A DNA stretch of 53,860 bases from Geobacteraceae bacterium (GTDB lineage: Bacteria; Desulfobacterota; Desulfuromonadia; Geobacterales; Pseudopelobacteraceae), in the NCBI GenBank assembly GCA_025355325.1, contig JANXZX010000143.1, forward strand, positions 1 to 53,860, in the 5' to 3' direction. Made by a program: the position numbers and the translations under genes. Each line of letters begins with the position of its first letter. Position 1 is the stretch's first letter. Positions 12,082 to 32,850 of this stretch are shown in pieces. The notes below the pieces were generated by a model. It searched no databases and was not told where the DNA came from. It saw nothing but the letters and a program-made list of their open reading frames with translations.

Positions 12082-13083
12082 ATGACCACACAAAAACCGA
12101 AACTGGCCATGTATTGGGCCGCCTCCTGCGGCGGATGCGAAGTTTCTCTGGCTAACATCCATGAAGCGATTCTGGAGGTTGACGCTCACTTTGATTTTAT
12201 GTTCTGTCCCTGTCTGCTGGATACCAAGAAAAAAGATATCGAAGCGCTTCCTGATGGTGATATCTTTTTGACACTGTTCAACGGCGCCCTCCGCACTGAA
12301 GAAAATCTTGAAATGGCAACACTTCTCCGCAGAAAATCCCGACTGTTTGTCGCTTTCGGAAGTTGTGCCGCCACCGGCGGCATTCCTGCCCTGGCCAACC
12401 ATCACGGTATCGCCGATGTGCTGGAAACGGCCTTTTGCTCGGTTCCGAGCATCGATAATCCCGAACGGCTGATACCGGGGACAACGTGTCAGGTGCCGGA
12501 TGGCGAGCTGGAACTTCCGGCTTTTTTAACCCGCGTTCTGGCACTCCACGAGGCGGTACCGGTTGATTACACCATGCCCGGTTGTCCGCCCGAGTCGGAG
12601 CAGATCATCGCTGTAGTGCGCCATGTGGCATCCGGAGCGCCGCTGCCGCCATCTGGGGCACAGATCGGCTGCACTGACCGTGCTGTCTGTGACGAATGTC
12701 CGCGCGAGAAGCGCACCACTCTTGCCTCACGTCTGATCAGGCCGTTTGAAGCTCTTCCCGAACCAGGCTGGTGTCTGGTCGAGCAGGGGTTCTTATGTGT
12801 CGGGAGCTCCACCCGCGGGGGGTGTGTTGCGCTCTGTCCGACCGCAAATATGCCCTGTACCGGGTGTTATGGTTCCCTTGATCAATCAGCTGATCCGGGC
12901 GCAACCGCACTTGCCACCCTGGTGGCCGCTGTGGATCCCGGCAGCGCCGTCGGCGTGGACGAGACCGCCCTGCTGGCCGGTTTAAAAGATGCCCTCTCTG
13001 GCGTGGCTGATCCGCTTGGAACCTTTTATCGCTATTCCCTGTCGGAAACGGTGGTCGCGGATCGTGCCAAGGAGGTTGAATAA
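12082..13083 (+). CDS. mvhG: cytosolic [NiFe] hydrogenase small subunit (group 3c, Mvh-type)
   Basis: A 333-residue small subunit carrying the Fe-S clusters that pass electrons away from the NiFe site. The proximal-cluster motif is at Cys16/Cys19 (ASCGGCE), with further ligands in GSCAATGG (about 93-100) and MPGCPPES (about 165). The C-terminal half has extra Cys motifs (CDECPREK and CVALCPTANMPCTGC) that fit the additional clusters of Mvh-type subunits. No signal peptide is present, so the enzyme is cytoplasmic. AAGGAG precedes the ATG. It is first in a tight six-gene set with mvhA, protease, hdrA, mvhD and a TusA-like gene. Confidence 0.9.
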   Translation: MTTQKPKLAMYWAASCGGCEVSLANIHEAILEVDAHFDFMFCPCLLDTKKKDIEALPDGDIFLTLFNGALRTEENLEMATLLRRKSRLFVAFGSCAATGGIPALANHHGIADVLETAFCSVPSIDNPERLIPGTTCQVPDGELELPAFLTRVLALHEAVPVDYTMPGCPPESEQIIAVVRHVASGAPLPPSGAQIGCTDRAVCDECPREKRTTLASRLIRPFEALPEPGWCLVEQGFLCVGSSTRGGCVALCPTANMPCTGCYGSLDQSADPGATALATLVAAVDPGSAVGVDETALLAGLKDALSGVADPLGTFYRYSLSETVVADRAKEVE

Positions 13084-14573
13084 TGAGCCAGCGCATCACC
13101 ATTGACCCGATTACCCGGTTGGAGGGGCACGGCAAGATAGAAATATTCCTGAACGACGCCGGCGAGGTTTCTTCGGCGTATTTCCAGGTTCCCGAACTGC
13201 GTGGTTTCGAGTCTTTCTGTGTCGGCAGGCATGCCGAAGAGATGCCCAATATTACCAACCGTATCTGCGGAGTTTGTCCCGAGGCTCATCACATGGCGGC
13301 CATAAAAGCGGTGGATGCCGCTTACGGAGTGGAATGTCTGCCTGCTGCCCGGCGCATTCGCGAGCTGATTTATATGGCTTTCTACGTGACCGACCACACG
13401 ACCCATTTTTATTGCCTGGGCGGGCCCGACTTTATCGTCGGCCCGGAAGCGCCGGCATCGGAACGCAATATTCTTGGCGTTATCCGCAAAGTCGGTCTCG
13501 ATATCGGGCAACAGGTGATTAATACCCGCAAACGCAACCATGAACTGATCAAGCAGCTTGGCGGTCGTGGCGTCCATCTGTGCGGAGCGGTGCCCGGCGG
13601 ATGGGCGGTGGCGGTCTCGAAGGAGCAGCAGGCTGAATTCCGGCATTGGGCAACCGAAAACGTGGAGTTTGCCAGGTTTTCGCTGAAAGCCTTTGAGGAT
13701 ATCGTACTCAAGAATCCGGAATATCTTGAGCTTGTTCTGTCCGACCTCTACTATCATGAAACCCACAGCATGGGCACGGTGGACCCGTTCAAGGCCCCCA
13801 ATTTCTACGACGGCCAAATCCGTGTGGTTGACACTCTGGGCAATGAAATTGCCCTCTACAATGCGAATGACTACCTTGATCACGTGGCCGAACGGGTTGA
13901 ACCGTGGAGCTATCTCAAGTTTCCCTATCTCAAAAAAATCGGCTGGAAAGGTTTCGTGGACGGTCAGGAGAGCGGCATTTACCACGCGACACCGTTGTCC
14001 CGCCTCAATGTGTCGGATCGTATGGCGACGCCAGGCGCCCAGGCGGAATTCGAGCGATTGTACGAAACATTCGGTGCGCGCGGCAAAGCGGCAAACGGAC
14101 GCAATCTTCCGATCCATCACCGCCTGGCGACCCATTGGGCCCGTCTTATCGAGCTGCTCTACGCTGCCGAACATATGTGCGAACTGCTTGATCACCCTGA
14201 AATCTGTGATCCGAATGTGCGCCGGGTGGTTCAGGCCCGGGCCGGTGTGGGTATCGGTTCGGTGGAAGCGCCGCGCGGCACCTTGACCCATCATTATGAA
14301 ACCGATGAACGCGGCATTCTGACCAGGGTTAATATGATCGTCGGTACCACCAATAACAACGCCCCGATGTCGCTTTCGATCATGAAAGCCGCCAAGGGGC
14401 TGATTCACGGCGGCAAAGTGTCCGACGGGATCCTGAACAAAGTCGAAATGGCCTTCAGGCTCTATGATCCCTGCTGTTCCTGTGCTACGCATGCGTTGGG
14501 AAAAGCCCCGCTGGAACTGCTGCTTCGCCGGGAGGGCAGCGGTGCGCTGCTTGACCGGGTGGTGCGGGACTGA
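13083..14573 (+). CDS. mvhA: cytosolic [NiFe] hydrogenase large subunit (group 3c, Mvh-type)
   Basis: A 496-residue catalytic subunit that splits or forms H2. The L1 motif RICGVC gives Cys62 and Cys65; the L2 motif DPCCSCATH near the C-terminus gives Cys464 and Cys467, completing the four Ni-Fe thiolate ligands. A 26-residue tail (ALGKAPLELLLRRE...) follows His470. Comparable tails occur in Mvh proteins, and part may be removed by the protease encoded next. The start codon overlaps the mvhG stop by one base (TAATG). A gene-sized opposite-strand frame here is a codon-bias shadow. Confidence 0.93.
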   Translation: MSQRITIDPITRLEGHGKIEIFLNDAGEVSSAYFQVPELRGFESFCVGRHAEEMPNITNRICGVCPEAHHMAAIKAVDAAYGVECLPAARRIRELIYMAFYVTDHTTHFYCLGGPDFIVGPEAPASERNILGVIRKVGLDIGQQVINTRKRNHELIKQLGGRGVHLCGAVPGGWAVAVSKEQQAEFRHWATENVEFARFSLKAFEDIVLKNPEYLELVLSDLYYHETHSMGTVDPFKAPNFYDGQIRVVDTLGNEIALYNANDYLDHVAERVEPWSYLKFPYLKKIGWKGFVDGQESGIYHATPLSRLNVSDRMATPGAQAEFERLYETFGARGKAANGRNLPIHHRLATHWARLIELLYAAEHMCELLDHPEICDPNVRRVVQARAGVGIGSVEAPRGTLTHHYETDERGILTRVNMIVGTTNNNAPMSLSIMKAAKGLIHGGKVSDGILNKVEMAFRLYDPCCSCATHALGKAPLELLLRREGSGALLDRVVRD

Positions 14574-14575
14574 CC

Positions 14576-15046
14576 ATGATAGTCATCGGCCTTGGATCCC
14601 CGTTTCTCAGTGACGACAGTGTTGGTCCGCGCGTTGTGCGCGAGCTGGTCGGTCGGGAACTGGCCGGTGTGCGACTGGTAGAGTCCCATGCCGGAGGGTT
14701 GCTGCTTTTGGAAGAATTGGCCGGATCACAGCGGGCCGTCATCGTCGATGCCCTGCTTGATGAACGGAAAAAACCGGGTGAAGTGGTAATGGCAAACATC
14801 GATACAGCAAGTCATAACGCGGCCTGCAGTCATGACTGCTCGCTGCCCGAAGCCCTGGCAATCGGGCGGGCCATGGGGATTTCTCTTCCGGCTGATGAGA
14901 ATATCCGTCTCGTCGGAATAGTGGCCAAAGATGTCAGCACCTTCAGCGAATCACTCACACCGAACGTGGCCGCAGCTATAGATAAAGCCTGTGACATCGT
15001 ATGTGCATACCTGTCAAGCAATTCTGCCAGTGCGGAGGCCGTATGA
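14576..15046 (+). CDS. hydrogenase maturation protease (HyaD/HycI family)
   Basis: A 156-residue endopeptidase that trims the C-terminus of the hydrogenase large subunit after nickel insertion. The N-terminal MIVIGLGSPFLSDDSVGPRV is the family signature, with the acidic metal ligand in LSDD. Another acidic residue in VIVDALLD and a His in SHDCSLPEAL fit the Ni-sensing site. It starts two bases after mvhA and its stop overlaps the hdrA start in an ATGA. Its target is almost certainly MvhA. Confidence 0.9.
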   Translation: MIVIGLGSPFLSDDSVGPRVVRELVGRELAGVRLVESHAGGLLLLEELAGSQRAVIVDALLDERKKPGEVVMANIDTASHNAACSHDCSLPEALAIGRAMGISLPADENIRLVGIVAKDVSTFSESLTPNVAAAIDKACDIVCAYLSSNSASAEAV

Positions 15047-16980
15047 GCACGCCCATAAAAACCGCCGTAATACTTTGTACCTGTAGCGGCATTATCAGCG
15101 AGCGGATTGACTGGGCAGAGGTGCAAACGCTCCTGGCCGGCCATCCGTCAAAGCCGGTTTTCCTGGTTGATGAGCTGGCCTGCGGCGTTGATAATTTGGA
15201 ACATCTGGCTGCATGGCTCGTTCAAGAGCAGCCATCCCGCGTCGTTGTGGCGGCCTGCTCCCCCCGGGAACATGAAACAACCTTCCGAAAGCTGCTGAGC
15301 GATGCCGGCATAAATCCGTGGTTCATGCAGTTCGTCAATGTACGTGAGCAGGTGGCCTGGGTTACTGAAGATCCCCGGGCGGCAACCGCCAAGGCGGCCC
15401 GCCTGCTGCATGCCGCACTGAACAGGGTACAGCGCCATGAACCGCTCAGCGAGCGGAGTGTGCCGGTACGCACCGAAGTGGCCGTAATCGGTTCCGGCCC
15501 GGCCGGAATGCAGGCGACCCTGACTCTGGCCCGGGCCGGCCGTCAGGTGACTCTGATCGAGAAGGAACCGGTCATCGGCGGGTTGCCGGTGCGATTTGAG
15601 GAATTGTTTCCCAATCTTGAATGCGGCCCCTGTCTGCTGGAGCCGGTCATGGGCGATCTGCTGCATGGCCACGAAAGCGCCAACGTCAACCTGCTGACCC
15701 TTTCCGAGGTGACTGAAGTCAAGGGGAGTTTCGGCAACTGGACGATCACGGTCAAACAGAAGCCGCGCTTCATCAATCCTGATCTTTGTATCGGCTGTAT
15801 GATCTGTGCCGAGGTGTGCCCGGAACGACGCCCCAACCGCTGGAACGGCAGTGGTGAAATTGCTGCGGTGGCTGTACCGTTTGCCGGTACGCTGCCCAAC
15901 CTGCCGCATATCGATGCCGAAACCTGTCTCAGGCTCAAGGGAGAGGAATGCAGTGCCTGTCTGGCCGAATGTCCGGTGGAAGGTTCCCTCGATTTTGATG
16001 ATCAAGAGCGGGAATATACCATCGAGGCGGGGGCAATCATTATTGCCAGCGGTGCGGAGGAAAAACAGGACCTGCCTGCGTCATTCGCCAATCAGGAAGA
16101 CGTTCATACCGCCTATTCCTTTGAACGCCTGCTGGCCATGAATGGACCGAGTGGCGGTGAACTGCTCAAGGCGGACGGTACCGCGCCGAAATCTCTGGCT
16201 ATTGTTCAATGCGCCGGTTCGCTGGACAGCAGCGAAGTCAGCTACTGCAGCGGCACCTGCTGCCGGGCCGCAGCCAAGTATGCCCATTTGGCCTCCGGCA
16301 AGGTGGCGGGGATTTCCGTCTCCCGCCTGGTACGGGAACAGTCGTTCCCCGGCGTGGATGCCGGACGTCAGTTTCATCACGATCACAGCACGGTCGTACG
16401 GTACGGTGCGTTTTCGGAACTGACGGTTACCGGCACGGAATCCGGGAGAAACATAATGATTGACGGCGGAACGACCGTCCGTGCCGACATGATCGTGCTC
16501 TGCCGCCCGATAGTGCCGAGTGCCGGTACCGCCGAATGTCTGTCATTGCTGGATCTTGACCGGGATGAGGCGGGCTTCATCGCCCCGCTGCATTCGCTGT
16601 CGGGGTCGTGCGCGACAACGCTCAAAGGGGTCTATCTTGCCGGAAGCTGCCGCGGCCCCGGTGATATCCGGGACGCCTTTGCCACGGGAACCGCTGCGGC
16701 CGGTTTGGCGCTGTCGGATCTGGTAGACGGTCGCGATCTGGTCATAGACCCGCAGGTGGCGGTGGTTGACGCAACCATATGTGCCGGCTGCAAAACCTGT
16801 ATCCAGCTCTGTCCATACAAGGCTATCTCCTGGAACGATGTCGAGAAGGTTGCGGAAGTTTCCGACATGCTCTGTCGCGGCTGTGGAACGTGTGTGGCCT
16901 CCTGTCCATCCGGAGCTATTACCGGGCGCGGTTTCTCGCGTGAGATGCTGCGTGCTGAGCTTGAGGGGGTATTGTCATGA
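15043..16980 (+). CDS. hdrA: HdrA-like iron-sulfur flavoprotein
   Basis: A 645-residue flavoprotein homologous to the bifurcating subunit of heterodisulfide reductase. The start at 15043 is fixed by the ATGA overlap with the protease. An N-terminal Cys-containing region (LCTCSG, about 11-16) precedes the FAD-binding GSGPAG at 150-155. Fe-S motifs are CIGCMICAEVCP (249-260), Cys295/Cys303/Cys306/Cys310, CAGCKTCIQLCP (580-591) and CRGCGTCVASCP (611-622). In methanogens HdrA accepts electrons through MvhD and bifurcates them to HdrBC and ferredoxin. No HdrB or HdrC occurs in this window, so the partner acceptor is unknown. Confidence 0.92.
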   Translation: MSTPIKTAVILCTCSGIISERIDWAEVQTLLAGHPSKPVFLVDELACGVDNLEHLAAWLVQEQPSRVVVAACSPREHETTFRKLLSDAGINPWFMQFVNVREQVAWVTEDPRAATAKAARLLHAALNRVQRHEPLSERSVPVRTEVAVIGSGPAGMQATLTLARAGRQVTLIEKEPVIGGLPVRFEELFPNLECGPCLLEPVMGDLLHGHESANVNLLTLSEVTEVKGSFGNWTITVKQKPRFINPDLCIGCMICAEVCPERRPNRWNGSGEIAAVAVPFAGTLPNLPHIDAETCLRLKGEECSACLAECPVEGSLDFDDQEREYTIEAGAIIIASGAEEKQDLPASFANQEDVHTAYSFERLLAMNGPSGGELLKADGTAPKSLAIVQCAGSLDSSEVSYCSGTCCRAAAKYAHLASGKVAGISVSRLVREQSFPGVDAGRQFHHDHSTVVRYGAFSELTVTGTESGRNIMIDGGTTVRADMIVLCRPIVPSAGTAECLSLLDLDRDEAGFIAPLHSLSGSCATTLKGVYLAGSCRGPGDIRDAFATGTAAAGLALSDLVDGRDLVIDPQVAVVDATICAGCKTCIQLCPYKAISWNDVEKVAEVSDMLCRGCGTCVASCPSGAITGRGFSREMLRAELEGVLS

Positions 16981-17426
16981 GTTGTCAGACTCTTCCAACT
17001 GAGCAAACTGCCGAAACTTCAAGCGCTAACGTTACTCCCGGACCGCTGAGAATTGTTGCTTTTCTGTGCAACTGGTGCTCTTATGCCGGAGCTGACAAGG
17101 CTGGATCAAACCAGCTTCCGGTGCCTTCCGAACTCTCGGTTATCCGGGTAATGTGCTCGGGTCGCATCGAGCCTCCTTTGATTCTTGAAGCTTTTCAAAA
17201 AGGTGCTGATGGTGTGATGGTCTTGGCCTGCCATCCTGGTGACTGTCATTACAAAGAAGGGAATATACGGGCATTTTGCCGGGCAGAACTGCTGCAGAAT
17301 CTGGTTCCGCAACTCGGCATTGATCCGAAACGCTTCCGGTTTGATTATGTATCAGCAGCGGAGGCTGAAAAATTTTCACGAATAACGAACGAATTTGTTG
17401 ATAAAATGCGGTCAATTAGGCTATAG
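16977..17426 (+). CDS. mvhD: MvhD-type [2Fe-2S] electron-transfer subunit
   Basis: A 149-residue ferredoxin-like adaptor that links Mvh hydrogenase to HdrA. Its conserved Cys pattern is complete: FLCNWCSYAGADKAG (about 29-43), MCSGRI (about 59-64) and ACHPGDCHYKEGN (about 84-96). The start overlaps the hdrA stop in an ATGA, indicating coupled translation. The first ~22 residues are a Ser/Thr-rich extension. It is followed after 30 bases by the TusA-like gene. Confidence 0.92.
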   Translation: MSCQTLPTEQTAETSSANVTPGPLRIVAFLCNWCSYAGADKAGSNQLPVPSELSVIRVMCSGRIEPPLILEAFQKGADGVMVLACHPGDCHYKEGNIRAFCRAELLQNLVPQLGIDPKRFRFDYVSAAEAEKFSRITNEFVDKMRSIRL

Positions 17427-17458
17427 AAATAGTGAATTTATTTTAAAAGGAGAACGTG

Positions 17459-17683
17459 ATGGCCACTCATAATCTTGACTGTATCGGACTTAAATGCCCC
17501 CAGCCAACTCTGAAAGTAACAGTGATGGCGGTAAAAATGAAGCCGGGCGATATTCTTGAAGTCCTGGCGGACTGTTCTACCTTTGAAAAAGATGTGCGTG
17601 ACTGGTGTACCCGTGCCAAGAAAACCATTTTGTGGTGCAAAGATGAAGGTGGCGGAAAGAAGAGAGTTCAGATCAAGTTCTGA
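17459..17683 (+). CDS. TusA/SirA-family sulfur carrier protein
   Basis: A 74-residue protein of the TusA fold. The signature DCIGLKCPQPTLK contains the sulfur-accepting Cys of the CPxP motif. I place the start at ATG 17459, six bases after GGAG; a GTG at 17456 is one codon longer. TusA proteins carry sulfane sulfur to tRNA thiolation or, in sulfur-metabolising bacteria, to dissimilatory enzymes. Extra Cys residues (Cys37, Cys47, Cys60 region) are present. The location directly behind mvhD-hdrA suggests a role in cytosolic sulfur transfer linked to that module; this is inference. Confidence 0.85.
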   Translation: MATHNLDCIGLKCPQPTLKVTVMAVKMKPGDILEVLADCSTFEKDVRDWCTRAKKTILWCKDEGGGKKRVQIKF

Positions 17684-17771: not shown

Positions 17772-18161
17772 GCAACCATTCTCAAACAGTGCGTGGCTGT
17801 TGTTTAGCCATCATGTTTCCTCTCCTCTATTTCGCCACATTTCCTTAAAATACCCGTCACTCCCCAGGTTGATTCCATAACCTTTTGACTCTGCATCATT
17901 TTATTACCAAGTTGTTTTCGGGCATTTAGTTCGAAATATATCTAAAACGGCTATTTAACGTACCGGTTTACGTCATAAGACCGATTATATTTTAAAATAA
18001 CATTCTATTATCTGAATATATAATTTTCCATATTTAAAACATGTTGTAAACCATATATTTAAATACTGATATGCGTTATAAATTCAAGAATCTATATATT
18101 TGGAATTATGATTGCATTACAGGTTCTATTAAACTCATTATTCTCACCAGAGGGAGGTAGC
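17772..18161. other. AT-rich leader region of the porin gene
   Basis: This 390-bp stretch becomes strongly AT-rich from about 17930 onward and probably holds the promoter of the porin-cytochrome block. I looked for sigma-54 and c-di-GMP riboswitch signatures and found none convincing. No reading frame with a ribosome site is present. Confidence 0.4.
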
Positions 18162-19709
18162 ATGAAAAAGAGAAACATCAGGAAAATTGCATTAGCGCTT
18201 GTACTGGGGATGATGGTTCCATTGTCCGCACATGCGGCAGAGGCTGATCTTCAACTTAAGATCGACCAGCTGACCAAAGAGGTTAATGACCTCAAGGGTT
18301 CAGTCAAGAAGGTCGAGGACAAGTCAATTGGCAAATGGTTGACAATTGGCGGCGATTATCGCTTCCGAGCCGATAGTCTGCATGGGGAGACTGTGGCGTA
18401 TACTAATGCCATGGTTTTGGGTGGGCTTATGCCAAAGGTGATGGGCGGAACAATGACTATGGCGGACGCTATGGCCGCTGCGGCTGTTCCCGCTGATAAG
18501 CCAAAAAATGAATCACTGTATACCAATAAATTCGGGCTTGATCTGCATGCCAAGGCAACTCAGGATGTAACGGTCAATGTTAAACTTGCAATGTACAAAT
18601 CCTTCGGTTCCGAAGGCACTGAGGCAACAACCGGCACCTACTTTGCGGATCGTGTCGGCGTGATGGACGGTACCATCAGCCACGTGCCATCCAGCAGTCT
18701 GCTCAATGTGGATCGGGCGTACGCTACCTGGAGCAACATTGCCGATCAGCCAGTCTGGTTTTCAGTAGGTCGTCGTCCCTCTACGGACGGTGCTCCGAGC
18801 AACCTGCGTTCGAACAAGGAGCGTCCCGGTAACGGTGGAACACCTGCTCTGCTCGTTGATTATGCATTCGACGGTATGACTCTTGGGTATGCCCCTGACA
18901 TTGATATGCTGCCCGGCGCATATGCCAAAGTGTGCTACGGTCGAGGCTTCGACAGCGGCTTCAAGACAGCAAACAACAGCCTTAAAGATACTGACATGCT
19001 GGGTGTTGCAATCATCCCGATTGAAACTGACCCGCTCCGCGTCTGGCTGCAATGGAACAGAGGCTATAATATTTTTGATCAATCAGCAATGAGCACTACC
19101 TCTTTCGGTATGCCGTTTTCTGCTACCACCAATCTTGGATACATCGATTGGTTCGGCGCAGGTGCAATGAGTACCCTCAAAAAAGTTGGTCCCGGCAGTT
19201 TAAATTTCTTTGCGGATTTTGGTGTTAGTATGACTAATCCAAACGGCAACACTTCAAACGGACTTGGCCTCATGACCAATACCTTTGATGGGATTTTCGC
19301 AGGACAGGCAAATGATACGTCCAGCAAAAACGGTTGGGCTGTATATGCTGGCGTACGCTATGACCTGCCATCAAAAACCAAGATTGGTTTTGAATTCAAT
19401 CATGGTTCGGAAAACTGGATTCCCTTTACTCCGGCGGCCGATGATATGTGGACAAGCAAGCTTGGTGTACGCGGTAACGTTTTTGAACCGTACATCATCC
19501 AGGAGCTGAACCTGAAGCCGATTTCCAGCTATTTCGCCAAGGCATTCTTCAAACTTGGCTATCAGTATTATGATTTTGAGTACACCGGCAGCAATAACTG
19601 GGTTGGCGCTCCGGTAAAAATTTCCTCCATACAGCCAACAACGGCATTGATGATGGCACCTGTTAAAACAGCCCACGATGTCTATGCAACATTCGAAGTA
19701 AAGTTCTAA
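18162..19709 (+). CDS. outer-membrane beta-barrel porin-like protein (DUF3373/ExtI-like)
   Basis: A 515-residue exported protein. The start at 18162 follows GGGAGG by six bases; a longer frame from 18108 is unlikely. The signal peptide ends near AHAAEA (residue 26). A short coiled coil (LQLKIDQLTKEVNDLKGSV, about 28-46) precedes a long barrel-type region of alternating hydrophobic/aromatic strands ending in a C-terminal Phe (YATFEVKF), the usual barrel-assembly signal. It resembles barrels found beside rhodanese and cytochrome genes in Geobacter extHIJKL clusters, where ExtI has been linked to selenite/tellurite handling (recalled, not checked). Likely role: outer-membrane passage for the block's substrate. 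Confidence 0.72.
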   Translation: MKKRNIRKIALALVLGMMVPLSAHAAEADLQLKIDQLTKEVNDLKGSVKKVEDKSIGKWLTIGGDYRFRADSLHGETVAYTNAMVLGGLMPKVMGGTMTMADAMAAAAVPADKPKNESLYTNKFGLDLHAKATQDVTVNVKLAMYKSFGSEGTEATTGTYFADRVGVMDGTISHVPSSSLLNVDRAYATWSNIADQPVWFSVGRRPSTDGAPSNLRSNKERPGNGGTPALLVDYAFDGMTLGYAPDIDMLPGAYAKVCYGRGFDSGFKTANNSLKDTDMLGVAIIPIETDPLRVWLQWNRGYNIFDQSAMSTTSFGMPFSATTNLGYIDWFGAGAMSTLKKVGPGSLNFFADFGVSMTNPNGNTSNGLGLMTNTFDGIFAGQANDTSSKNGWAVYAGVRYDLPSKTKIGFEFNHGSENWIPFTPAADDMWTSKLGVRGNVFEPYIIQELNLKPISSYFAKAFFKLGYQYYDFEYTGSNNWVGAPVKISSIQPTTALMMAPVKTAHDVYATFEVKF

Positions 19710-19717
19710 ACGTGGTT

Positions 19718-19752: not shown

Positions 19753-19815
19753 ACTTGCAAAACATAAGCTGCCTGCTACACTACTAATCAGTAAATTCAA
19801 CAAGGAGCATCGACA

Positions 19816-20139
19816 ATGAAAAAAATAATTTCGATAATCATGGTTATGGCACTCATGCTTATTTCTTCGCTTACCGTTGTTAAAACAGCAAGCGCTGAAG
19901 AAATGAAAATGACCGGTACAATTACAAAAATCGCGCTTGCTGCCGATGGTAAATCTGCAACAGCAGTTCTGAAAGACAGCAAGACGGAAGCTTTGGTCAC
20001 TATTACCATTACTGATGACCTTACCCTCGATAAGTTCAAGGACAAGCGAATCGTTGAAGGTGATGAAATCCGTACAAAATATGATGCCGAAGGTGGCAAG
20101 AACACAAGCAAGATGTTCAAAAAAACCGCCGGTTGTTAG
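19816..20139 (+). CDS. small exported protein ending in Gly-Cys
   Basis: A 107-residue protein with a signal peptide (to about residue 28, KTASAEE). The ~79-residue mature part is beta-rich (MTGTITKIALAADGKSA, VTITITDDLTL) and ends in ...KKTAGC, with Cys as the very last residue and the only mature Cys. AAGGAG precedes the ATG. Its C-terminal region (GDEIRTKYDAEGGKNTSKM) resembles residues about 106-127 of the rhodanese protein encoded next, so the two probably share a small domain. Position is between porin and rhodanese, like the small gene in ext-type clusters. Function unknown. Confidence 0.75.
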   Translation: MKKIISIIMVMALMLISSLTVVKTASAEEMKMTGTITKIALAADGKSATAVLKDSKTEALVTITITDDLTLDKFKDKRIVEGDEIRTKYDAEGGKNTSKMFKKTAGC

Positions 20140-20167
20140 GCGGATAACTCAAGGAGGATCATGAACT

Positions 20168-21571: not shown

Positions 21572-21579
21572 TGCTGCGC

Positions 21580-25440: not shown

Positions 25441-25441
25441 T

Positions 25442-26599: not shown

Positions 26600-26601
26600 C
26601 C

Positions 26602-27318
26602 ATGGAACAGTTTGACGGAAAAGATCCTCTGGATATCATGCACGAAGATCTGCAGCGTGCTCTGAAAAAACCGCGCAGTGAACGTCGCTGGGCCATGGCA
26701 ATTGACCTCAAAAAATGTATCGGGTGCCATGCCTGCACTACCGGCTGCATGTCTGAGAACCTGACTCCCCCCGAGATTCACTACCGCCCGGTCAAGGAGG
26801 AGGAGATCGGTGAGTTCCCCAACACCGGTATGCGTTTCCTGCCGCGCCCCTGCATGCAGTGTGATGCACCGACCTGCACGCCGGTCTGTCCGGTTACTGC
26901 CACGTACAAGCGCGATGACGGCCTGGTGGTGATAGATTATAAGAAGTGCATCGGATGCCGGTATTGCCTGGTGGCCTGCCCCTACGGCGCCCGCTCGGCT
27001 GATGTAGGGCATTATTACACCGGTGATTTTCACGATAAGACCTACGAAGTGGAAAATTCCGGAGAATATGGAAAGAGCTTTAAGCGCAAGAGTCATTGGC
27101 ATTCCCCTATTGGTAATGCCAGAAAATGTCATTTCTGCATCCATCGTGTGGAGAAAGGTGAGTTAACCAGATGCACAACCACATGCCTCGGGCAGGCTAC
27201 CTATTTTGGTGATGTCAACGACCCGAAAGCCCTGATTACCCGGCTGGTATCAAAACCAAATGTAATAAAATACAAAGAAGAGCTTGGCACCAAGCCGATG
27301 GTGTATTACATCGTATAG
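26602..27318 (+). CDS. four-cluster ferredoxin subunit (PsrB/DmsB type)
   Basis: A 238-residue Fe-S protein with four cysteine clusters: CIGCHACTTGC (about 38-48), CMQCDAPTCTPVCP (about 83-96), CIGCRYCLVACP (about 115-126) and CHFCIHRVEKGELTRC (about 170-185). ATG 26602 is chosen, eight bases after GGAGGAG; a TTG at 26596 overlapping the NrfD stop would add two codons. There is no signal peptide, so export would have to occur bound to the Tat-exported catalytic subunit, as known for several family members. It wires the Mo site to the NrfD subunit. Confidence 0.9.
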   Translation: MEQFDGKDPLDIMHEDLQRALKKPRSERRWAMAIDLKKCIGCHACTTGCMSENLTPPEIHYRPVKEEEIGEFPNTGMRFLPRPCMQCDAPTCTPVCPVTATYKRDDGLVVIDYKKCIGCRYCLVACPYGARSADVGHYYTGDFHDKTYEVENSGEYGKSFKRKSHWHSPIGNARKCHFCIHRVEKGELTRCTTTCLGQATYFGDVNDPKALITRLVSKPNVIKYKEELGTKPMVYYIV

Positions 27319-27329
27319 ATATCTGGACA

Positions 27330-27350
27330 TTTTAGCTAAATATGCTAAAA
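27330..27350. promoter_or_regulatory. 7-bp inverted repeat, possible operator or attenuator
   Basis: TTTTAGC (27330-27336) and GCTAAAA (27344-27350) are a perfect inverted repeat with a seven-base spacer, in the short gap between the Fe-S subunit gene and the Lys-rich gene. No binding protein can be named. Confidence 0.3.
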
Positions 27351-27404
27351 CTTGAATACTTTGCTTTAACCGGTTCGCCGGAAACAGACAAAAGGAGAAT
27401 ACAC

Positions 27405-27647
27405 ATGAAAAAAATTGTAGCGATGATGGTGGCAGCAATGGTGGCTCTGAGTTTTTCGATGGTTGCTGTGGCAGAAGAGAAGGCCTCAGAAAAACCGGCT
27501 GCTGAAAAAACAGAAAAAGTAGAGAAGAAAGATGCCAAGAAAGACACCAAGAAAGATGTAAAAAAAGACAAAAAGAAAGACGACAAGAAAAAAGACGCTG
27601 ATGCCAAGCCGGCTGCCAAGGGTAAAAAAGAAGTTTCCGGTTGTTAG
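27405..27647 (+). CDS. small exported Lys-rich protein ending in Gly-Cys
   Basis: An 80-residue protein with a signal peptide (to about residue 24, VAVAEE). ATG 27405 follows AAAGGAG by seven bases; a longer frame from 27342 lacks a site. The mature part is highly charged and low-complexity, dominated by Lys, Asp and Glu (KKDAKKDTKKDVKKD), and ends in ...KEVSGC. Cys is the last residue and the only one. This terminal Gly-Cys is shared with the small exported protein at 19816. A basic periplasmic tail protein could bind acidic cytochromes or anionic polymers; that is speculation. Confidence 0.7.
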   Translation: MKKIVAMMVAAMVALSFSMVAVAEEKASEKPAAEKTEKVEKKDAKKDTKKDVKKDKKKDDKKKDADAKPAAKGKKEVSGC

Positions 27648-27660
27648 TGTTCTTAGATAG

Positions 27661-29532
27661 ATGAACGGTGTACAGGTAATAAAAAGCAGGGCACGCCAAT
27701 TGGCGGCCCTCTTTTTTTTGACAATACTGCTTGCAGTGGTGTGTGCAGGGTGCGTCGTGCAGAAGAAGGCCGAAGGGTGCATATCATGTCACGGCAACCT
27801 TGAACACGCTTCAAAAAGCCACTCCGGCTGTGTTGACTGTCATGGCGGGAATAGCTCTTCCCGTGACAAGGATGGAGCACATACCACTCTTCACAGCAAA
27901 GCCAACCCGTCGTCTCCCGACAGTTGGGAGAAAAGCTGCGGCAAATGTCATCGCTATCAACTGGAACGGGTAAAATCAACCCTCATGCAGACTAATGAAG
28001 GCATGATTCGCAATATCCAGCTGACCTGGGAGGGGATGGATGATCACTCGTATAACTCGACCGGTGGAAAGTTCTTTGATGCCGCAGGCAAACCGGTTGA
28101 ATATGATTCAGTAGAGCATCTGGACAATCTCTCCGGTGAACTCTACCGCAAATTTTGCTCCCGATGCCACGTCGGTTCTAGCAATTCAGAATCATATGGG
28201 GCTGCCCATGCCTCCGGTTGTGCGGCCTGCCACTTTCCATGGAATGATACCGCTACCTATGAGGGGAGCGACAAAACCATGAAGGGGAGGGGGGGGCATT
28301 CTGCCAATCACAGTATGACACCGCTCCCGGAGACCCAGGTCTGTGCGCGCTGCCACAACCGCAGTGGCAGGATAGCTTTATCCTATCAGGGGCTGTATGA
28401 CGGCAATAATGGCCTGGTGCCGACCAGCCAGGGCGAAGCGGGGCCGTTGATGACCAGCGGCGCCCGCAATCTGACCCGGATCTCGCCCGACGTCCATTTT
28501 GCCGCCGGGATGGAGTGCATTGACTGCCATACATCGCGGGATGTCATGGGTGACGGCTTTGCCTATCGGAACATGTACCAGCAGACCGAGATCAGCTGCG
28601 AGGATTGTCACGGAAGCTCCAGTGTCGTACCGCGCTTTCGAGAAGTTACCCGCGAAAACGATGAAGCGCTGCGAGAATCAAAAAGCTATAAACAGCCGGT
28701 TACGTCAGGTATGCGAATGATTCAGACCGCCAAAGGGCGGAGCTATTCAAATGTGTTCTTTAAAGATGGTGCAGTCTGGCTGCAGGGCAAGAAGAGCGGC
28801 AAACTTCATCGCAGCAAGGTCATCACCGGCACAGCCGAACACACCATCGCCGGTCATGGCCGTCTGGAGTGTTATGCCTGCCATTCGCACACCTCGGTGC
28901 AGTGTTATGGTTGTCATACTCGCTACGATAGGGGCAAGCCGGGGATGGATTTCATCAAGGGTGAAGAGACCGCCGGTGCTTTCAGTGAAACGGAGGATTA
29001 CCGTATGCTCTTTCCTTTCCCGTTGGCACTTAACCAGCGCGGTCGGATATCGCCGGTGACGCCCGGTTGTCAGACTTTTGTTACGGTGGCGGAGGCGGAC
29101 GGCTCTACCTCAAAGACTGAATATGTTGCAAAATTCAAGGGAAAGCAGCAGCTCCGTTTTGCGCCATTCTACTCGCATAACAGTACCAAAAAAGCGATAA
29201 CCTGCGCCGAATGCCATGGCAATCCGGCATTTCTCGGCTTTGGACAGCATATTGTTGAAGGCAGCAGCATCAAGGGAACGCTGATTTGTGAGCGTTCTGA
29301 CAGCAAGCCGCTCGATGGTTTCCTGACAATGGAACATGGTCGGGTAAACGCCTTTTCCGCCATTACCCGTGAGAATTCGCGTCCATTAAGTGGAACTGAA
29401 GTAAAACGGACATTATCGGTAAATCTCTGTCTTCCCTGTCACGACAAGGCTCGCGACCCGATCTACCGGAAAGGAATAAATCTACGTGCGTTGGATGATA
29501 CTCTTCATCGTCGGCTTCTGTCTGCTCCCTGA
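27661..29532 (+). CDS. 12-heme c-type cytochrome
   Basis: A 623-residue multiheme cytochrome. I count 12 CXXCH motifs (CISCH, CVDCH, CGKCH, CSRCH, CAACH, CARCH, CIDCH, CEDCH, CYACH, CYGCH, CAECH, CLPCH). The N-terminus has a hydrophobic export segment (about 13-29) ending VVCAGC; Cys31 may be lipidated, although Cys at -3 is not typical of a lipobox. The ribosome site is weak. It overlaps the next cytochrome gene by 47 bases. Position ahead of Rieske and cytochrome b genes matches heme-rich menaquinol:cytochrome c oxidoreductase clusters (Cbc type) of Geobacter. Confidence 0.88.
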   Translation: MNGVQVIKSRARQLAALFFLTILLAVVCAGCVVQKKAEGCISCHGNLEHASKSHSGCVDCHGGNSSSRDKDGAHTTLHSKANPSSPDSWEKSCGKCHRYQLERVKSTLMQTNEGMIRNIQLTWEGMDDHSYNSTGGKFFDAAGKPVEYDSVEHLDNLSGELYRKFCSRCHVGSSNSESYGAAHASGCAACHFPWNDTATYEGSDKTMKGRGGHSANHSMTPLPETQVCARCHNRSGRIALSYQGLYDGNNGLVPTSQGEAGPLMTSGARNLTRISPDVHFAAGMECIDCHTSRDVMGDGFAYRNMYQQTEISCEDCHGSSSVVPRFREVTRENDEALRESKSYKQPVTSGMRMIQTAKGRSYSNVFFKDGAVWLQGKKSGKLHRSKVITGTAEHTIAGHGRLECYACHSHTSVQCYGCHTRYDRGKPGMDFIKGEETAGAFSETEDYRMLFPFPLALNQRGRISPVTPGCQTFVTVAEADGSTSKTEYVAKFKGKQQLRFAPFYSHNSTKKAITCAECHGNPAFLGFGQHIVEGSSIKGTLICERSDSKPLDGFLTMEHGRVNAFSAITRENSRPLSGTEVKRTLSVNLCLPCHDKARDPIYRKGINLRALDDTLHRRLLSAP

Positions 29533-30685
29533 ACCGGATGCGATGGCCGCCCACACGGGATTGGTCTGCAGTTCGTGTCATCGTCAGGGAGGAGGTTACA
29601 GCGATCCCGCTTCACGTTTGAACCGTGCAGGAGGGTGCGCTGTCTGCCATCAGGGGCATGAGCGGATCTTTGACCACGCTATGGGGCAGCGCAGTGGCGA
29701 GGAGCAGTTTGTGCAACGGAGCTATGCCCGCTTTGATTCCGGGTTCTGGGAGAAAAACTGCAACTCCTGCCATCTGAAGGGGTGTCTTGACTGCCATGGA
29801 GAAAAGGGACTGGCAAAGCCGACAGTTGCTGCCTGCCAGCGGTGCCATACCGGCTATTTCACCGGATGGGATTATTCAGGTCGTGCTCCCCGTGAAGACA
29901 ACATGCGCTACCAGCGGGGCATTGCCGTTAATGGTGAAACCTTTCTGAAGATGCTCCCTGACGTCCACTATAGTGCCGGCATGACTTGTGGTGCCTGTCA
30001 TTCAATGAAGAGCCTGGCAGAGGGACAGAAATCCTCAAAAGGGTGCCGCGACTGTCACAAGCCGAGCCAAAAGCCGCTTGAACACCGCATAGCCGCACAT
30101 ATGGAACGGCTGGAGTGCTACGCCTGCCATTCAGCCTGGGCGCCCCAGGAGTACGGCACATTTTATCTGCGCTTTCGCGATCAGCGGATGAAAGAGGATT
30201 TTGACCTTACGCCGACGTCAAGTGCGGAATATCTGCGCAGCGCCTATCTGAAAAAGCAGGATGCGCCGCCGCTGGGCATAAATGCCGCCGGCCGGATCAG
30301 CCCGATCAGGCCGATGTTCATCGCCTATTACACTGATATAATGACCGCCAGAAACAACGGTCCCGAGAATACGCTGCTTGCCGCCGAATGGCGGGCATAT
30401 TTCCCGCATACCATCCGAAGGGGGAGTGTGACCTGTGAAGGATGCCACGATAATCCGACCCGTTTTCTCCTTGAACCGGAGTCGCGGCGAATCTACAATC
30501 TCAAAAAAGATGGTTTGGGGCTTGAATCATTCTGGTCTCAGAAAGAACAGCGTGTCAGCAACGGCAGTTTCATGGACGCTGCCCGTTATCTGCGCATGAG
30601 CAGCAAATCTCCGGCCTACACGAAAGCATATGTGGAAAAATGGAAAACGTTCCTCAATCACGTCGAAAATTCATCACGACCCTGA
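29486..30685 (+). CDS. 9-heme c-type cytochrome
   Basis: A 399-residue cytochrome with nine CXXCH sites (CSSCH, CAVCH, CNSCH, CLDCH, CQRCH, CGACH, CRDCH, CYACH, CEGCH). The signal peptide covers about residues 1-21 (ending AMAAH). The GTG at 29486 is used; ATG at 29495 is an alternative. Its 5' end overlaps the 12-heme gene by 47 bases and its 3' end overlaps the Rieske gene by 46 bases, so translation is coupled. It shares paralogous stretches with the 12-heme protein (for example LECYACHS and the SPDVHF/LPDVHY-SAGM region), pointing to duplication. Confidence 0.88.
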   Translation: MRWMILFIVGFCLLPEPDAMAAHTGLVCSSCHRQGGGYSDPASRLNRAGGCAVCHQGHERIFDHAMGQRSGEEQFVQRSYARFDSGFWEKNCNSCHLKGCLDCHGEKGLAKPTVAACQRCHTGYFTGWDYSGRAPREDNMRYQRGIAVNGETFLKMLPDVHYSAGMTCGACHSMKSLAEGQKSSKGCRDCHKPSQKPLEHRIAAHMERLECYACHSAWAPQEYGTFYLRFRDQRMKEDFDLTPTSSAEYLRSAYLKKQDAPPLGINAAGRISPIRPMFIAYYTDIMTARNNGPENTLLAAEWRAYFPHTIRRGSVTCEGCHDNPTRFLLEPESRRIYNLKKDGLGLESFWSQKEQRVSNGSFMDAARYLRMSSKSPAYTKAYVEKWKTFLNHVENSSRP

Positions 30686-31038
30686 CCCTACTGCTCGCCT
30701 CGGGCGGCCTGCTGGTGCGGTATCTCAAGCCTCTCACGCCTGCCAGGCGCCGGGTACTCGTATCTGTTGCCGCTGCGGATGTGCCGCTTAACGGGGCATT
30801 GGTGTTTCAGAACGAGCGACTGGCGGTTATGAAGGACAACAACGGTGTATATGCTCTAAGCCTGGTCTGTACCCATCTTGGTTGTACGGTTACGGTCACG
30901 GAGAATTCATTCTCATGTCCCTGTCACGGAAGTTTGTTCAATCGACAGGGAAAGGTCGAACGTGGGCCTGCGAACGGGCCTCTCGGAAGGTTGCACGTGG
31001 TAACGGAAAACGGCATGATTCAGGTTTTAGGCGCATGA
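30640..31038 (+). CDS. Rieske [2Fe-2S] protein
   Basis: A 132-residue Rieske subunit. The N-terminus carries a twin-arginine-type signal/anchor (SRRKFIT, Arg8-Arg9, then a hydrophobic stretch to residue 27). Cluster box 1 is CTHLGC (77-82) and box 2 CPCHGSLF (93-100). The ligands are Cys77, His79, Cys93 and His96, and Cys82 and Cys95 form the disulfide. It oxidises menaquinol with the cytochrome b encoded next. The start lies inside the end of the 9-heme gene and the stop overlaps the cytochrome b start (ATGA). Confidence 0.93.
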   Translation: MENVPQSRRKFITTLTLLLASGGLLVRYLKPLTPARRRVLVSVAAADVPLNGALVFQNERLAVMKDNNGVYALSLVCTHLGCTVTVTENSFSCPCHGSLFNRQGKVERGPANGPLGRLHVVTENGMIQVLGA

Positions 31039-31655
31039 TACAGGATTTCCTCAAGCATCTTTTTCCTCGCGTCGTACTGGAGAGGAATCTGCGCTTCAGC
31101 TATACCTTCTGTCTGGGTGGATTGGCATTTACCGCCTTTCTCATAATGCTGGCCAGTGGCATGCTGCTGCTTGTCTACTATCAACCGACGCCTGAGAGGG
31201 CATTCAGTTCAGTCCTTTTTCTGGAAGCATCCGTCTGGGGGGGGAAGTATCTGCGCAGCCTGCACCGTCTTACCTCTCATACGCTTCTTATTCTGATTCT
31301 GTTGCATACACTGAGGGTAATCCTGACAGGGGCATATCAAAGACCACGGCAGCTTAATTGGGTGATTGGCTGCCTCCTGCTGTTCCTTGCACTCTTTGAG
31401 GCATACACCGGTTATCTTCTGCCGTTTGACCAACTGGCATTCTGGGCAACCCAGACCGGAATGGAGCTGCTGGCAACGCTGCCGTTCGGTTCCTTCTTCC
31501 GCTCCCTGCTTGTTCCGGATGAAGTCGGGCATGGTCTGTCATTGCTCCGTTTTTACGCACTGCATATTGCGATCATTCCACTCAGCGTGCTGTTACTCTC
31601 GTTTCTGCATTTCTACCGGGTCAGAAAGAACAAGGGAGTTCTGCCATACTTATGA
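31035..31655 (+). CDS. cytochrome b, b6-type N-terminal subunit
   Basis: A 206-residue four-helix cytochrome b. The start is set by the ATGA overlap with the Rieske gene. Heme b ligands are His77/His91 in helix B and His177/His192 in helix D. Their spacings are 14 and 15, and the second spacing is the b6 rather than mitochondrial-b pattern. It binds two b hemes and forms the quinol sites with the separate subunit IV that follows in another ATGA overlap. Confidence 0.92.
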   Translation: MIQDFLKHLFPRVVLERNLRFSYTFCLGGLAFTAFLIMLASGMLLLVYYQPTPERAFSSVLFLEASVWGGKYLRSLHRLTSHTLLILILLHTLRVILTGAYQRPRQLNWVIGCLLLFLALFEAYTGYLLPFDQLAFWATQTGMELLATLPFGSFFRSLLVPDEVGHGLSLLRFYALHIAIIPLSVLLLSFLHFYRVRKNKGVLPYL

Positions 31656-32062
31656 AAAGTGGATTCGTTAAAAGCTCCCCCCGTTTTTTCAAGCTCATCA
31701 GTCGTTCGATGTATGCGCTGGTCGTGGCTCTTTTTGCCTTGGCGGCGTTTGTTCCGGCACCACTACAGGAACAGGCCAGCCCGGCAATTACCCCTAATCC
31801 GGTTAAATCTGCCTGGTTCCTGCTCTGGATTCAGGAACTGGTCAGTTGGTCGTGTTTGATGATTTATCCGGTTTTACTTCTCGGATGTTTGTTTGTCATG
31901 CTTCCCTGGCTCCCCGTCGGGCCTCATCTCCACAAAGCCAGCTGGTTTGCGGGCAGTCAAAAGAAAGTTTCCGTAATTACCATTGCGCTGGTTGCCATTA
32001 TCGCAGGCTTAACGTTAATGGCCATGTTTTTCAGGGGGGCTAATTGGTCTCTCGTGTTCTGA
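31652..32062 (+). CDS. cytochrome b C-terminal subunit (subunit IV-like)
   Basis: A 136-residue protein with three transmembrane helices (about 17-35, 52-80, 105-127). The segment ITPNPVKSAWFLLWIQEL corresponds to the quinol-site region of subunit IV / cytochrome b C-terminal halves, where PEWY is found in other complexes; here the motif is altered. It overlaps the cytochrome b stop by four bases and the tetraheme gene start by 19 bases. Together with the b6-type protein it makes a split cytochrome b. Confidence 0.82.
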   Translation: MKSGFVKSSPRFFKLISRSMYALVVALFALAAFVPAPLQEQASPAITPNPVKSAWFLLWIQELVSWSCLMIYPVLLLGCLFVMLPWLPVGPHLHKASWFAGSQKKVSVITIALVAIIAGLTLMAMFFRGANWSLVF

Positions 32063-32850
32063 TTGCACTACTTTTTTTAATAGCCGTTCCCGCCTGGGGC
32101 AGTCAGCTCTGCGTTACGTGCCATTCAGCTCATTATGTTGGACGAGGAAGTTGCATCGACTGTCACAGGGGCAATCCGGATTCTGAACGAAAAAATATAG
32201 CCCATGAGAGGATACGTGCCGGTAAATATGTCCGTTTCACTCTCGGAGAAGCCGCGTTGATGAAGGAGGGACAGCGCGTGATCGATCTGCTTGCCTGTCG
32301 GCGCTGTCATAGTAGTGCCGGTCGTGGCAACAGCCTGACAACGAACCTTGACGGTGCGGCACTACGGAAAACTCCCAAGGAACTGGTTCAGTCGATACGG
32401 AATCCCGCAACGAATATGCCTGATTTTGCCCTGACTGAAGAGCAGATGACTGTATTGATAAATGCCATTTATTCAGGTTCGCTGGCACGGAAGCCGGATC
32501 AGATTGCGCCGGTTAAAGTTCATTTTAATTCGGCTGGCAGAAAGGATCCGGATATTTTTTCCACAAAGTGCGGCAGCTGTCATCGAATTATCAGTGCCCG
32601 TCTTGGTGCCGTCGGTACTGGTGATATCGGCCCTAACCTGTCCGGACTATTTTCTGGATTTTATCCAAAGACATTCAGGAATGATGAAGTCTGGACTACC
32701 AAAAATCTGGATACGTGGCTGAAAAATCCGCGAGTGATCCGACCGTGGGCGAGAATGCAGCCGGTATTGCTGAACGAAATTGAAACAAGAGAAATTGAGT
32801 CTGTTATTGGTTCAGTTTCCAATAACAGTGCATCGAAGGAGGGGCGCTGA
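32044..32850 (+). CDS. tetraheme c-type cytochrome
   Basis: A 268-residue secreted cytochrome with a short signal peptide (to about residue 19, PAWGS). It uses a TTG start four bases after GGGGGG, overlapping subunit IV; no in-frame ATG would leave a usable signal sequence. Heme sites are CVTCH and CIDCH (N-terminal, closely spaced), CRRCH (about 85) and CGSCH (about 178). The last two sit in cytochrome-c-like domains with candidate Met ligands (TNMPDF, RMQPVL). It is the last gene of the block, likely the electron exit of the Rieske/cytochrome b complex. It converges with the HD-GYP gene with one base between stops. Confidence 0.85.
   Translation: MVSRVLIALLFLIAVPAWGSQLCVTCHSAHYVGRGSCIDCHRGNPDSERKNIAHERIRAGKYVRFTLGEAALMKEGQRVIDLLACRRCHSSAGRGNSLTTNLDGAALRKTPKELVQSIRNPATNMPDFALTEEQMTVLINAIYSGSLARKPDQIAPVKVHFNSAGRKDPDIFSTKCGSCHRIISARLGAVGTGDIGPNLSGLFSGFYPKTFRNDEVWTTKNLDTWLKNPRVIRPWARMQPVLLNEIETREIESVIGSVSNNSASKEGR

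Follow-up and report, generated by a model that had tools for sequence, protein, structure and literature searches.

The window analysed here, contig JANXZX010000143.1 (53,860 nt; assembly GCA_025355325.1) of a Geobacteraceae bacterium in the order Geobacterales, carries on its forward strand a run of genes at positions 18108-32850 that is very probably a variant of the Geobacter ext cluster equipped with a Psr-type molybdenum (Mo) module. The ext half is already known, and its combination with the Mo module is what appears to be new. The initial annotation of this DNA, which had joined these genes and an upstream hydrogenase operon into one block, knew of no described system with the full set. 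That statement has to be narrowed, since ext clusters (PMC5877670, PMC6148476) and a Psr operon with a triple-rhodanese protein (PMC12142623) are both on record; it stands for the full combination, and a search of open-licence PubMed Central found no description of a Mo module in an ext cluster or of the ExtP-ExtQ-ExtM fusion described below.

For most of the last six genes a curated model supplies the name, which identifies the heme-rich bc complex as the Ext complex. ExtM, ExtN, ExtQ and ExtS exceed their NCBIfam cut-offs. The cytochrome b scores best against the ExtP model but stays below its cut-off (226.7 of 290 bits), and the Rieske assignment comes from Pfam; the order and gene overlaps of ExtO and ExtP match those in relatives. 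The model NF040968, named for ExtO as an iron-sulfur (FeS) protein, spans 416 positions and matches the multiheme ExtN, and no ext model picks up the Rieske protein; the naming looks confused. Compared with extHIJKLMNOPQS of G. sulfurreducens (GSU2940-GSU2930), the window has the same ExtM, N, O, P, Q, S order and likewise a rhodanese protein, a presumed outer-membrane protein and a small protein upstream. It differs in lacking model matches to ExtH, ExtI and ExtKL and in leaving too little space immediately upstream for a divergent LysR gene, and has instead a DUF3373 protein, a heme-rhodanese (hereinafter designated RhoH), an octaheme protein and a Psr-type Mo complex (catalytic subunit hereinafter designated MoA). 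RhoH and the DUF3373 protein match neither NF040901 nor NF040900, models that do match the classic ExtH and ExtI proteins of the order; the octaheme protein gives no match to NF040886, the test for ExtKL, and a search of the window's genome for ExtKL at E ≤ 1e-30 found nothing. No divergent LysR gene lies upstream of the DUF3373 gene, which is preceded by 424 bp and then by the forward-strand TusA/hydrogenase operon. In Geobacter, few cytochromes are conserved in every species compared, those of ext among them, and loss of extI impairs the reduction of selenite and tellurite (PMC5877670); the extHIJKL part belongs to a set of five conduit clusters investigated in connection with metals, and G. 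sulfurreducens without it reduces Fe(III) citrate at about 66% of the wild-type level (PMC6148476).

MoA has a match to the twin-arginine (Tat) signal, FeS-binding cysteines and a cysteine (Cys176) in a QCRG motif. Cys176 is invariant in 12 MoA sequences and aligns with a cysteine of PsrA, at what we take to be the position of the Mo ligand. The nearest PDB sequence is T. thermophilus PsrA, at 670.7 bits against 216.2 for the next, a lead of 454 bits. By sequence, by this cysteine and by the FeS and NrfD partner genes beside it, MoA belongs to the PsrA/PhsA/SrrA family, sharing with PsrABC, PhsABC and SrrABC the cysteine at the ligand place, the Tat-signal match and both partners. The named members with a cysteine ligand reduce polysulfide, thiosulfate and selenite, respectively (PMC10100899). 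The nearest described parallel to the Mo half is probably the Psr operon of Desulfurivibrio dismutans (RS06465-06490), which is up in sulfur disproportionation and, like the window, combines a Psr-type Mo complex with a secreted triple-rhodanese protein; in its published description, on which this comparison rests, that rhodanese is a predicted lipoprotein and an Ext bc complex is not mentioned in the part consulted (PMC12142623).

A tree of 84 MoA rows, drawn from the best 80 among the matches listed and rooted on PsrA alone, falls into three groups: clade A (the window's type), clade B and a third group from Ignavibacteriota, Chlorobiota, Bacteroidota, Gemmatimonadota, Acidobacteriota, Verrucomicrobiota and Armatimonadota. 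Nitrospirota sequences stand at the base of clade A and at the base of clade B. In clade B and the third group the pair of NrfD and FeS protein is a shorter one; clade A, together with its closest kin (L115, L116 and L119; L and G numbers denote loci and genomes), has a longer NrfD, weakly DsrP-like in the window's clade, and a DsrO/TtrB-like FeS protein, so that the pair of the window's clade differs in type from that of clade B. L117 and L118, the next outward from clade A with starred support, carry the B-type pair. The electron-transfer pair thus appears to have been exchanged under a retained catalytic subunit, L119 being a long branch. Within clade A, NrfD occurs in versions about 90%, 70% or 50% identical to the window's, with Mo and FeS neighbours mostly at 80-93%, a spread that suggests replacement of NrfD alone.

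The arrangement of DUF3373 protein, small protein, heme-rhodanese, sometimes the octaheme protein, Mo enzyme, NrfD, FeS protein and ExtM-N-O-P-Q-S recurs around ExtM, with the order Mo enzyme, FeS, NrfD in part of the units. Besides the window's family, three other families of the order have it, there with some genes absent or relocated. In Geomonas sp. Red32 (L125), the DUF3373 gene, an ExtJ-like gene, RhoH, MoA, FeS, NrfD and ExtMNOPQS stand in a single row, with a Mo enzyme of clade B; at the Red330 locus there is no DUF3373 gene and no same-strand RhoH near MoA. Repeated occurrence across many genomes shows that chance does not account for the grouping of 18108-32850, and the neighbourhood comparison bears out the earlier proposal that the DUF3373 protein, heme-rhodanese, Mo enzyme, NrfD/FeS pair and bc complex form one unit with a sulfur or chalcogen context. 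At E ≤ 1e-180, the Mo enzyme occurs in 52 copies in 48 of the 141 genomes of the order; 40 copies share a contig with ExtM, and 39 of these lie 1.8-17 kb upstream of it on the same strand. A 9-heme ExtM-like paralogue (581 aa) is present near the cluster in two genomes (L019, L030).

Within the order, the Mo enzyme and the selenoprotein ExtKL are nearly exclusive beside ExtM. Among 91 ExtM genomes, the Mo enzyme alone occurs in 46, ExtKL alone in 30, both in one and neither in 14 (Fisher p = 3.5e-12 for Mo versus ExtKL, kinship ignored). These 91 come from 97 ExtM genomes, six having been dropped because their sole ExtM match was at E 1e-6 or weaker, and 31 of 33 ExtK genomes were used, the ExtK matches of G053 and G065 (33-35% identity) being set aside; counting the G065 match gives two genomes with both. 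G011 and G052, whose ExtM-like proteins are 31-38% identical, and incomplete genomes such as G132 (53%) and G016 (78%) were kept. Other members of the order have the classic front half (LysR, ExtH, ExtI, small protein, ExtKL), the ExtH, ExtI and ExtK of locus L060 matching the curated models. The succession of ExtK, an in-frame TGA and ExtL turned up 20 times across 19 of the order's loci and also in Nitrospirota L116; a further TGA-pattern match, in L051, is not ExtK-like. ExtH and ExtI accompany the Mo module without ExtK in L021, L022, L025, L026, L031, L033 and L039. Separately, L035, L036, L041 and L043 are ExtH-ExtI-ExtM clusters in genomes with neither ExtK nor the Mo enzyme at the thresholds used.

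The window's genome has no match to SelB at E ≤ 1e-50 or to SelA at E ≤ 1e-5, and its best match to the selenocysteine (Sec) tRNA, at 41.4 bits, falls below the 47-bit gathering score; with SelA and SelB not found, it is probably unable to make ExtKL. Across the order, SelB exceeds the cut-off in 40 of 47 Mo-only genomes (including G084, which lacks ExtM) and is absent in three of 30 ExtKL-only genomes, all three 84-85% complete, G050 having a fragment. Since most Mo-only genomes keep SelB (Fisher p = 0.73), the idea that ExtKL was replaced through loss of the Sec machinery was rejected.

Outside Geobacterales, MoA sits among sulfur genes. In the third group (38 loci, from the same best 80 among the matches listed), the gene order is MoA-FeS-NrfD followed by YeeE genes, and a YeeE match lies 3.6-4.6 kb past the MoA start in all 32 loci that reach at least 2.6 kb past MoA. 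The YeeE genes form two clusters, one representative of each matching PF04143; a study of cable bacteria assigns YeeE to the uptake of thiosulfate (PMC13047784). A gene of the rhodanese cluster, one representative of which was confirmed as a rhodanese by Pfam, comes next in 28 of the 38 loci. Upstream, part of the group has a MerR gene and a MobA-like gene. Two loci of the window's order (L037, L047) also have a YeeE pair, placed between RhoH and MoA. In Nitrospirota L118, TusA, a Pyr_redox_2 protein, DUF1641 and DsrE genes adjoin MoA, and L115 and L116 contain clustered relatives of most of these. DsrA has no match in the window's genome at E ≤ 1e-5.

The same third-group loci contain ExtM-like matches in 10 and ExtO-like (Rieske) matches in 5 of 38 cases. 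In L163, a single protein adjoining MoA comprises ExtP (residues 15-183), ExtQ (192-300) and ExtM (336-905), and the ExtP and ExtM parts of this fusion are seen in L160. The existence of the fusion suggests that ExtM physically partners the cytochrome b. We tentatively propose, at somewhat less than even confidence, that the Ext Rieske/cytochrome b/multiheme complex could be the conserved electron-handling part of an ancient sulfur respiratory module spread over several phyla (Psr-type Mo enzyme, rhodanese and YeeE pair, with ExtP, ExtQ and ExtM joined in Acidobacteriota and Ignavibacteriota), whose substrate half would have been swapped repeatedly in Geobacter relatives between two Mo clades and the selenoprotein cytochrome, the electron-transfer pair of one Mo clade being exchanged as well.

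RhoH combines, in 18 aligned sequences, an invariant CXXCH, three rhodanese domains and an N-terminus that looks signal-like by eye. Cys204 and Cys209, a CX4C pair in domain 1, are nearly invariant, and Cys426 in domain 3 is invariant. The fold model (mean predicted local distance difference test (pLDDT) score 84.6) resolves into a beta domain plus three rhodanese folds, and its PDB matches are rhodaneses and sulfurtransferases. A homologue at E ≤ 1e-60 is present in 38 of the 395 genomes of the phylum sample. One in-frame TGA occurs at 28 of 41 matched places; 20 of the 41 (L191-L210) were fetched, picked mostly for the TGA, and in all 19 TGA-bearing homologues among them it falls exactly at the Cys209 column (YCxGxxU), L195 having none. 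The heme motif lies outside the matched part in seven of the 20. The window's own protein has Cys209 and not Sec at this site; with a TGA at that column in many of its homologues, RhoH is probably the Cys form of a selenoprotein family. Rhodanese selenoproteins have been listed, one with a UxxS motif, and their motif YCxG(x)xU-xxS aligns with the first rhodanese domain of the window, which points to the same family, the window having Cys where they have Sec (PMC13188914). A CX4C or CX4U pair in a heme-bearing rhodanese suggests redox chemistry on bound sulfur and not simple transfer.

The DUF3373 protein occupies the place of ExtI without matching its model. We presume it to be an outer-membrane barrel, its Pfam family being uncharacterised; its AlphaFold model (mean pLDDT 35.6) was unusable and entered no search. 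For the small protein at the ExtJ position, a relation to the beta domain of RhoH as a stand-alone unit was dropped (BLAST E 0.13). The octaheme gene occurs in 11 of 80 ExtM loci and is therefore optional in the cluster. Like octaheme tetrathionate reductase (OTR), its product has eight c-heme sites and a weak family match; unlike a member of that family it scores well under the cut-off (TIGR04315, 157.7 of 375 bits), and an assignment as tetrathionate reductase was rejected. Octaheme and rhodanese genes without Mo enzymes share a cluster in Dethiobacter alkaliphilus, as far as that cluster is described (PMC10376724).

On balance we favour, with some confidence, a reading of the unit as a periplasmic Psr/Phs-type Mo oxidoreductase for sulfane sulfur or thiosulfate linked through menaquinone to the Ext bc complex, with a substrate and direction that we infer. 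That inorganic sulfur is the main substrate class seems likely. The reductive direction is about an even call, because the Rieske/b complex suits a high-potential acceptor while the named family members are reductases. MoA-NrfD-FeS, RhoH, the presumed outer-membrane channel and the octaheme cytochrome would take over the handling of the substrate from ExtH-ExtI-ExtKL. The compound entering through the DUF3373 channel would carry sulfane sulfur (thiosulfate, polysulfide or a selenium analogue), the CX4C rhodanese site of RhoH would take the sulfur atom, and MoA would cleave or reduce the substrate with electrons from menaquinol passed through NrfD and the FeS protein. In parallel, the Ext bc complex would oxidise menaquinol and pass electrons to ExtM, ExtN, ExtS and the octaheme protein, so that the menaquinone pool and the periplasmic cytochromes would join the Mo half to ExtMNOPQS.

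A number of observations weigh against this reading. A Rieske/b complex fits a high-potential acceptor such as selenite or metals better than sulfur or thiosulfate reduction. MoA does not reach the PhsA equivalog cut-off (505.5 of 694 bits). Membership of the Psr family is itself no proof of a sulfur substrate, because most Deferribacteres with psrABC-type clusters are reported not to reduce S0 (PMC6896113). The association is also incomplete: 12 of the 52 MoA copies lie on other contigs than ExtM, some in fragmented assemblies and some apart; G101 has 16 kb upstream of ExtM without MoA; and, outside the order, RhoH is near MoA in only one of 20 loci (L209, at 8 kb). As to the exclusiveness with ExtKL, 14 ExtM genomes have neither system, and the Mo/ExtKL state amounts to only five changes on an ExtM tree of 70 rows (10 changes when Mo-A, Mo-B and ExtK are scored as three states). 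A kinship-aware test on independent pairs is not significant, with none in the same way and a median of two opposite (p = 0.5; too few pairs). G125 has both systems, one ExtK by ExtM and a second about 7 kb upstream of MoA on the same strand; its MoA is 29 kb from ExtM, on the far side from the ExtK there. Beyond the order, L116, L118 and L119 have ExtK-like genes close to MoA, which makes the exclusiveness at most a feature of this order.

In an opposite direction of flow, MoA would oxidise sulfide, polysulfide or thiosulfate in the periplasm and deliver electrons through NrfD into menaquinone, from which the Ext bc complex would feed the multihemes and finally Fe(III), Mn(IV) or another high-potential acceptor, giving a sulfur-oxidising, metal-reducing chain. 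The operon encodes two quinone-reactive parts, NrfD and the Rieske/cytochrome b, which makes a quinone loop plausible, and the Rieske/b complex suits such an acceptor. The lowered Fe(III) citrate reduction on loss of extHIJKL (PMC6148476) fits this direction as well; the PsrA, PhsA and SrrA members named in the source are reductases (PMC10100899), and the known ext phenotype concerns reduction of selenite and tellurite (PMC5877670), both of which speak against it, and we regard it as somewhat unlikely. Selenite or tellurite could alternatively be the substrate of the Mo module, which would then stand in for ExtKL in the same selenite pathway and resemble SrrA of Bacillus selenitireducens. Near-exclusiveness with ExtKL beside the same ExtM agrees with this, as do the place of SrrA in the same family (PMC10100899), the failure to find SelA and SelB in the window's genome and the Cys of RhoH where many homologues have an in-frame TGA. 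The gene context in other phyla is, however, one of sulfur (YeeE, rhodanese, TusA, DsrE), and the retention of SelB in most Mo-only genomes leaves Sec loss no explanation for the swap; we consider a dedicated selenite or tellurite reductase unlikely.

The preferred reading of 18108-32850, a sulfur-type Mo module joined to the Ext complex, does not extend to the genes upstream. Positions 12082-17683 are a separate conserved hydrogenase/HdrA/TusA operon, with an MvhG-MvhA-HdrA-MvhD set recognised through Pfam, NCBIfam and PDB matches that do not reach equivalog cut-offs, and with no HdrB or HdrC among its genes. Across 89 related loci (80 around ExtM and 9 around MoA), MvhG, HdrA, MvhD and TusA give zero matches at E ≤ 1e-5; 29 of these loci have the DUF3373 gene, with upstream sequence of at least 3 kb in 17 and at least 6.1 kb in 7. 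A 37% MvhA-like gene lies 9 kb upstream of ExtM in L036. MvhG has matches in 62 of the order's 141 genomes. Those of highest identity (72-86%) all belong to genera other than the window's, and in the remaining genomes of the window's own genus MvhG is at about 54% identity or less, or absent. Among assemblies of which many are drafts, MvhG at 50% identity or more shares a contig with MoA, outside the window's genome, only in G098, G068, G020 and G117, at distances of about 24, 50, 141 and 490 kb, respectively. All 11 hydrogenase loci fetched (L171-L181, chosen by MvhG identity) contain MvhG, MvhA, the protease, HdrA and MvhD, and TusA follows MvhD in nine of them, which assigns TusA to the hydrogenase unit. 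The operon is also present in G113-G116 and G118, genomes with no match to MoA and no full-length match to ExtM.

The joining of the two runs is thus seen in the window's genome only. A single H2-driven sulfur pathway spanning 12082-32850, as the initial annotation had it, has in its favour the common strand and a gap of only 424 bp; with MvhG, HdrA, MvhD and TusA matched at none of the 89 loci, the hydrogenase operon conserved on its own elsewhere, usually with TusA, and MvhG divergent or missing in other genomes of the window's genus, it is highly improbable. With the hydrogenase operon a separate unit, neither the suggested coupling to H2 nor carriers of sulfane sulfur on both sides of the membrane finds genomic support, TusA belonging to the other operon. 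Absence of co-location elsewhere, named at the outset as the outcome that would make the block a chance arrangement, was thus found for the hydrogenase half; for 18108-32850 the opposite was found. The association of TusA with an HdrA-hydrogenase without HdrB and HdrC may merit its own study.

All gene families of the initial annotation were located on the forward strand between 12082 and 32850, where 20 genes run in the same direction (Table 1), and its figure of 34 c-hemes agrees with our count: one in RhoH, seven CXXCH and one CX3CH in the octaheme protein, 12 in ExtM, nine in ExtN and four in ExtS, the CXXCH of the FeS protein being excluded as part of a ferredoxin motif. The genes form two runs with internal spacings of -47 to 175 bp, and the single larger gap, from the TusA end at 17683 to the DUF3373 gene start at 18108, is the 424 bp mentioned above. 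Between 17300 and 23400, promoter-like sites number 13 against a shuffled mean of 8.4 (standard deviation 3.0) and terminator-like sites 6 against 6.2; Rfam and tRNA scans of the window gave no matches. Elsewhere in the window, a SOUL-family heme-binding protein gene (11163-11849) lies directly upstream of the hydrogenase operon, and a second [NiFe] hydrogenase occupies 45346-50508 (small subunit with a C-terminal domain, 45346-46458; large subunit, 48829-50508), adjoined by a sigma-54 response regulator gene on the opposite strand (43748-45118).

Table 1 Genes of the two runs on the forward strand of the window
Gene product	Run	Position	Strand	Basis
MvhG/VhuG-type [NiFe]-hydrogenase small subunit	1	12082..13083	+	NCBIfam VhuG 200.5 bits (cut-off 450); best PDB match MvhG 5odc
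MvhA/VhuA-type hydrogenase large subunit	1	13083..14573	+	Pfam and NCBIfam profile matches
Hydrogenase maturation protease	1	14576..15046	+	TIGR00072 84.9 bits (cut-off 47.45)
HdrA-like flavin/FeS protein	1	15001..16980	+	Pfam and NCBIfam profile matches
MvhD/FlpD	1	16977..17426	+	PF02662 161.6 bits
TusA	1	17459..17683	+	PF01206; follows MvhD in 9/11 related hydrogenase loci
DUF3373 protein, putative outer-membrane barrel	2 (first gene)	18108..19709	+	PF11853 506.6 bits; no NCBIfam match
Small protein, ExtJ position	2	19816..20139	+	No Pfam or NCBIfam match; signal-like N-terminus by eye; recurs after DUF3373 gene
RhoH, monoheme, beta domain and three rhodanese domains	2	20168..21571	+	Pfam, alignment, fold model; signal-like N-terminus by eye
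Octaheme c-type cytochrome, distant OTR relative	2	21747..23120	+	TIGR04315 157.7 bits (cut-off 375); 1SP3 87.6 bits
MoA, PsrA/PhsA/SrrA-family Mo-enzyme catalytic subunit	2	23242..25440	+	Profile and PDB matches; Tat-signal match; Cys176 at presumed Mo-ligand position
NrfD-type membrane subunit, weakly DsrP-like	2	25442..26599	+	PF03916 75 bits; DsrP 36.5 of 350 bits
4Fe-4S ferredoxin subunit, DsrO/TtrB-like	2	26596..27318	+	DsrO 171 of 200 bits
Small lysine-rich protein	2	27342..27647	+	Composition
ExtM, dodecaheme cytochrome c	2	27661..29532	+	NF040943 1018.9 bits (cut-off 800)
ExtN, nonaheme cytochrome c here	2	29486..30685	+	NF040967 595 and NF040968 602.1 bits (cut-offs 200)
ExtO, Rieske FeS protein	2	30640..31038	+	PF00355 49 bits
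ExtP, cytochrome b	2	31035..31655	+	NF040969 226.7 bits (cut-off 290); start set at ATG 31035
ExtQ, membrane protein	2	31652..32062	+	NF040970 169.4 bits (cut-off 150)
ExtS, tetraheme cytochrome c	2	32044..32850	+	NF040971 310.7 bits (cut-off 100)

The reported effects of the ext cluster cover selenite and tellurite reduction and, in part, metals. Linking the Ext bc half to a sulfur-type molybdoenzyme, both here and in other phyla, gives it a concrete and testable substrate class. The alternation of ExtKL and the Mo module beside the same ExtM amounts to a natural swap experiment, and a heme-rhodanese of a probable selenoprotein family is now linked to the ext pathway.

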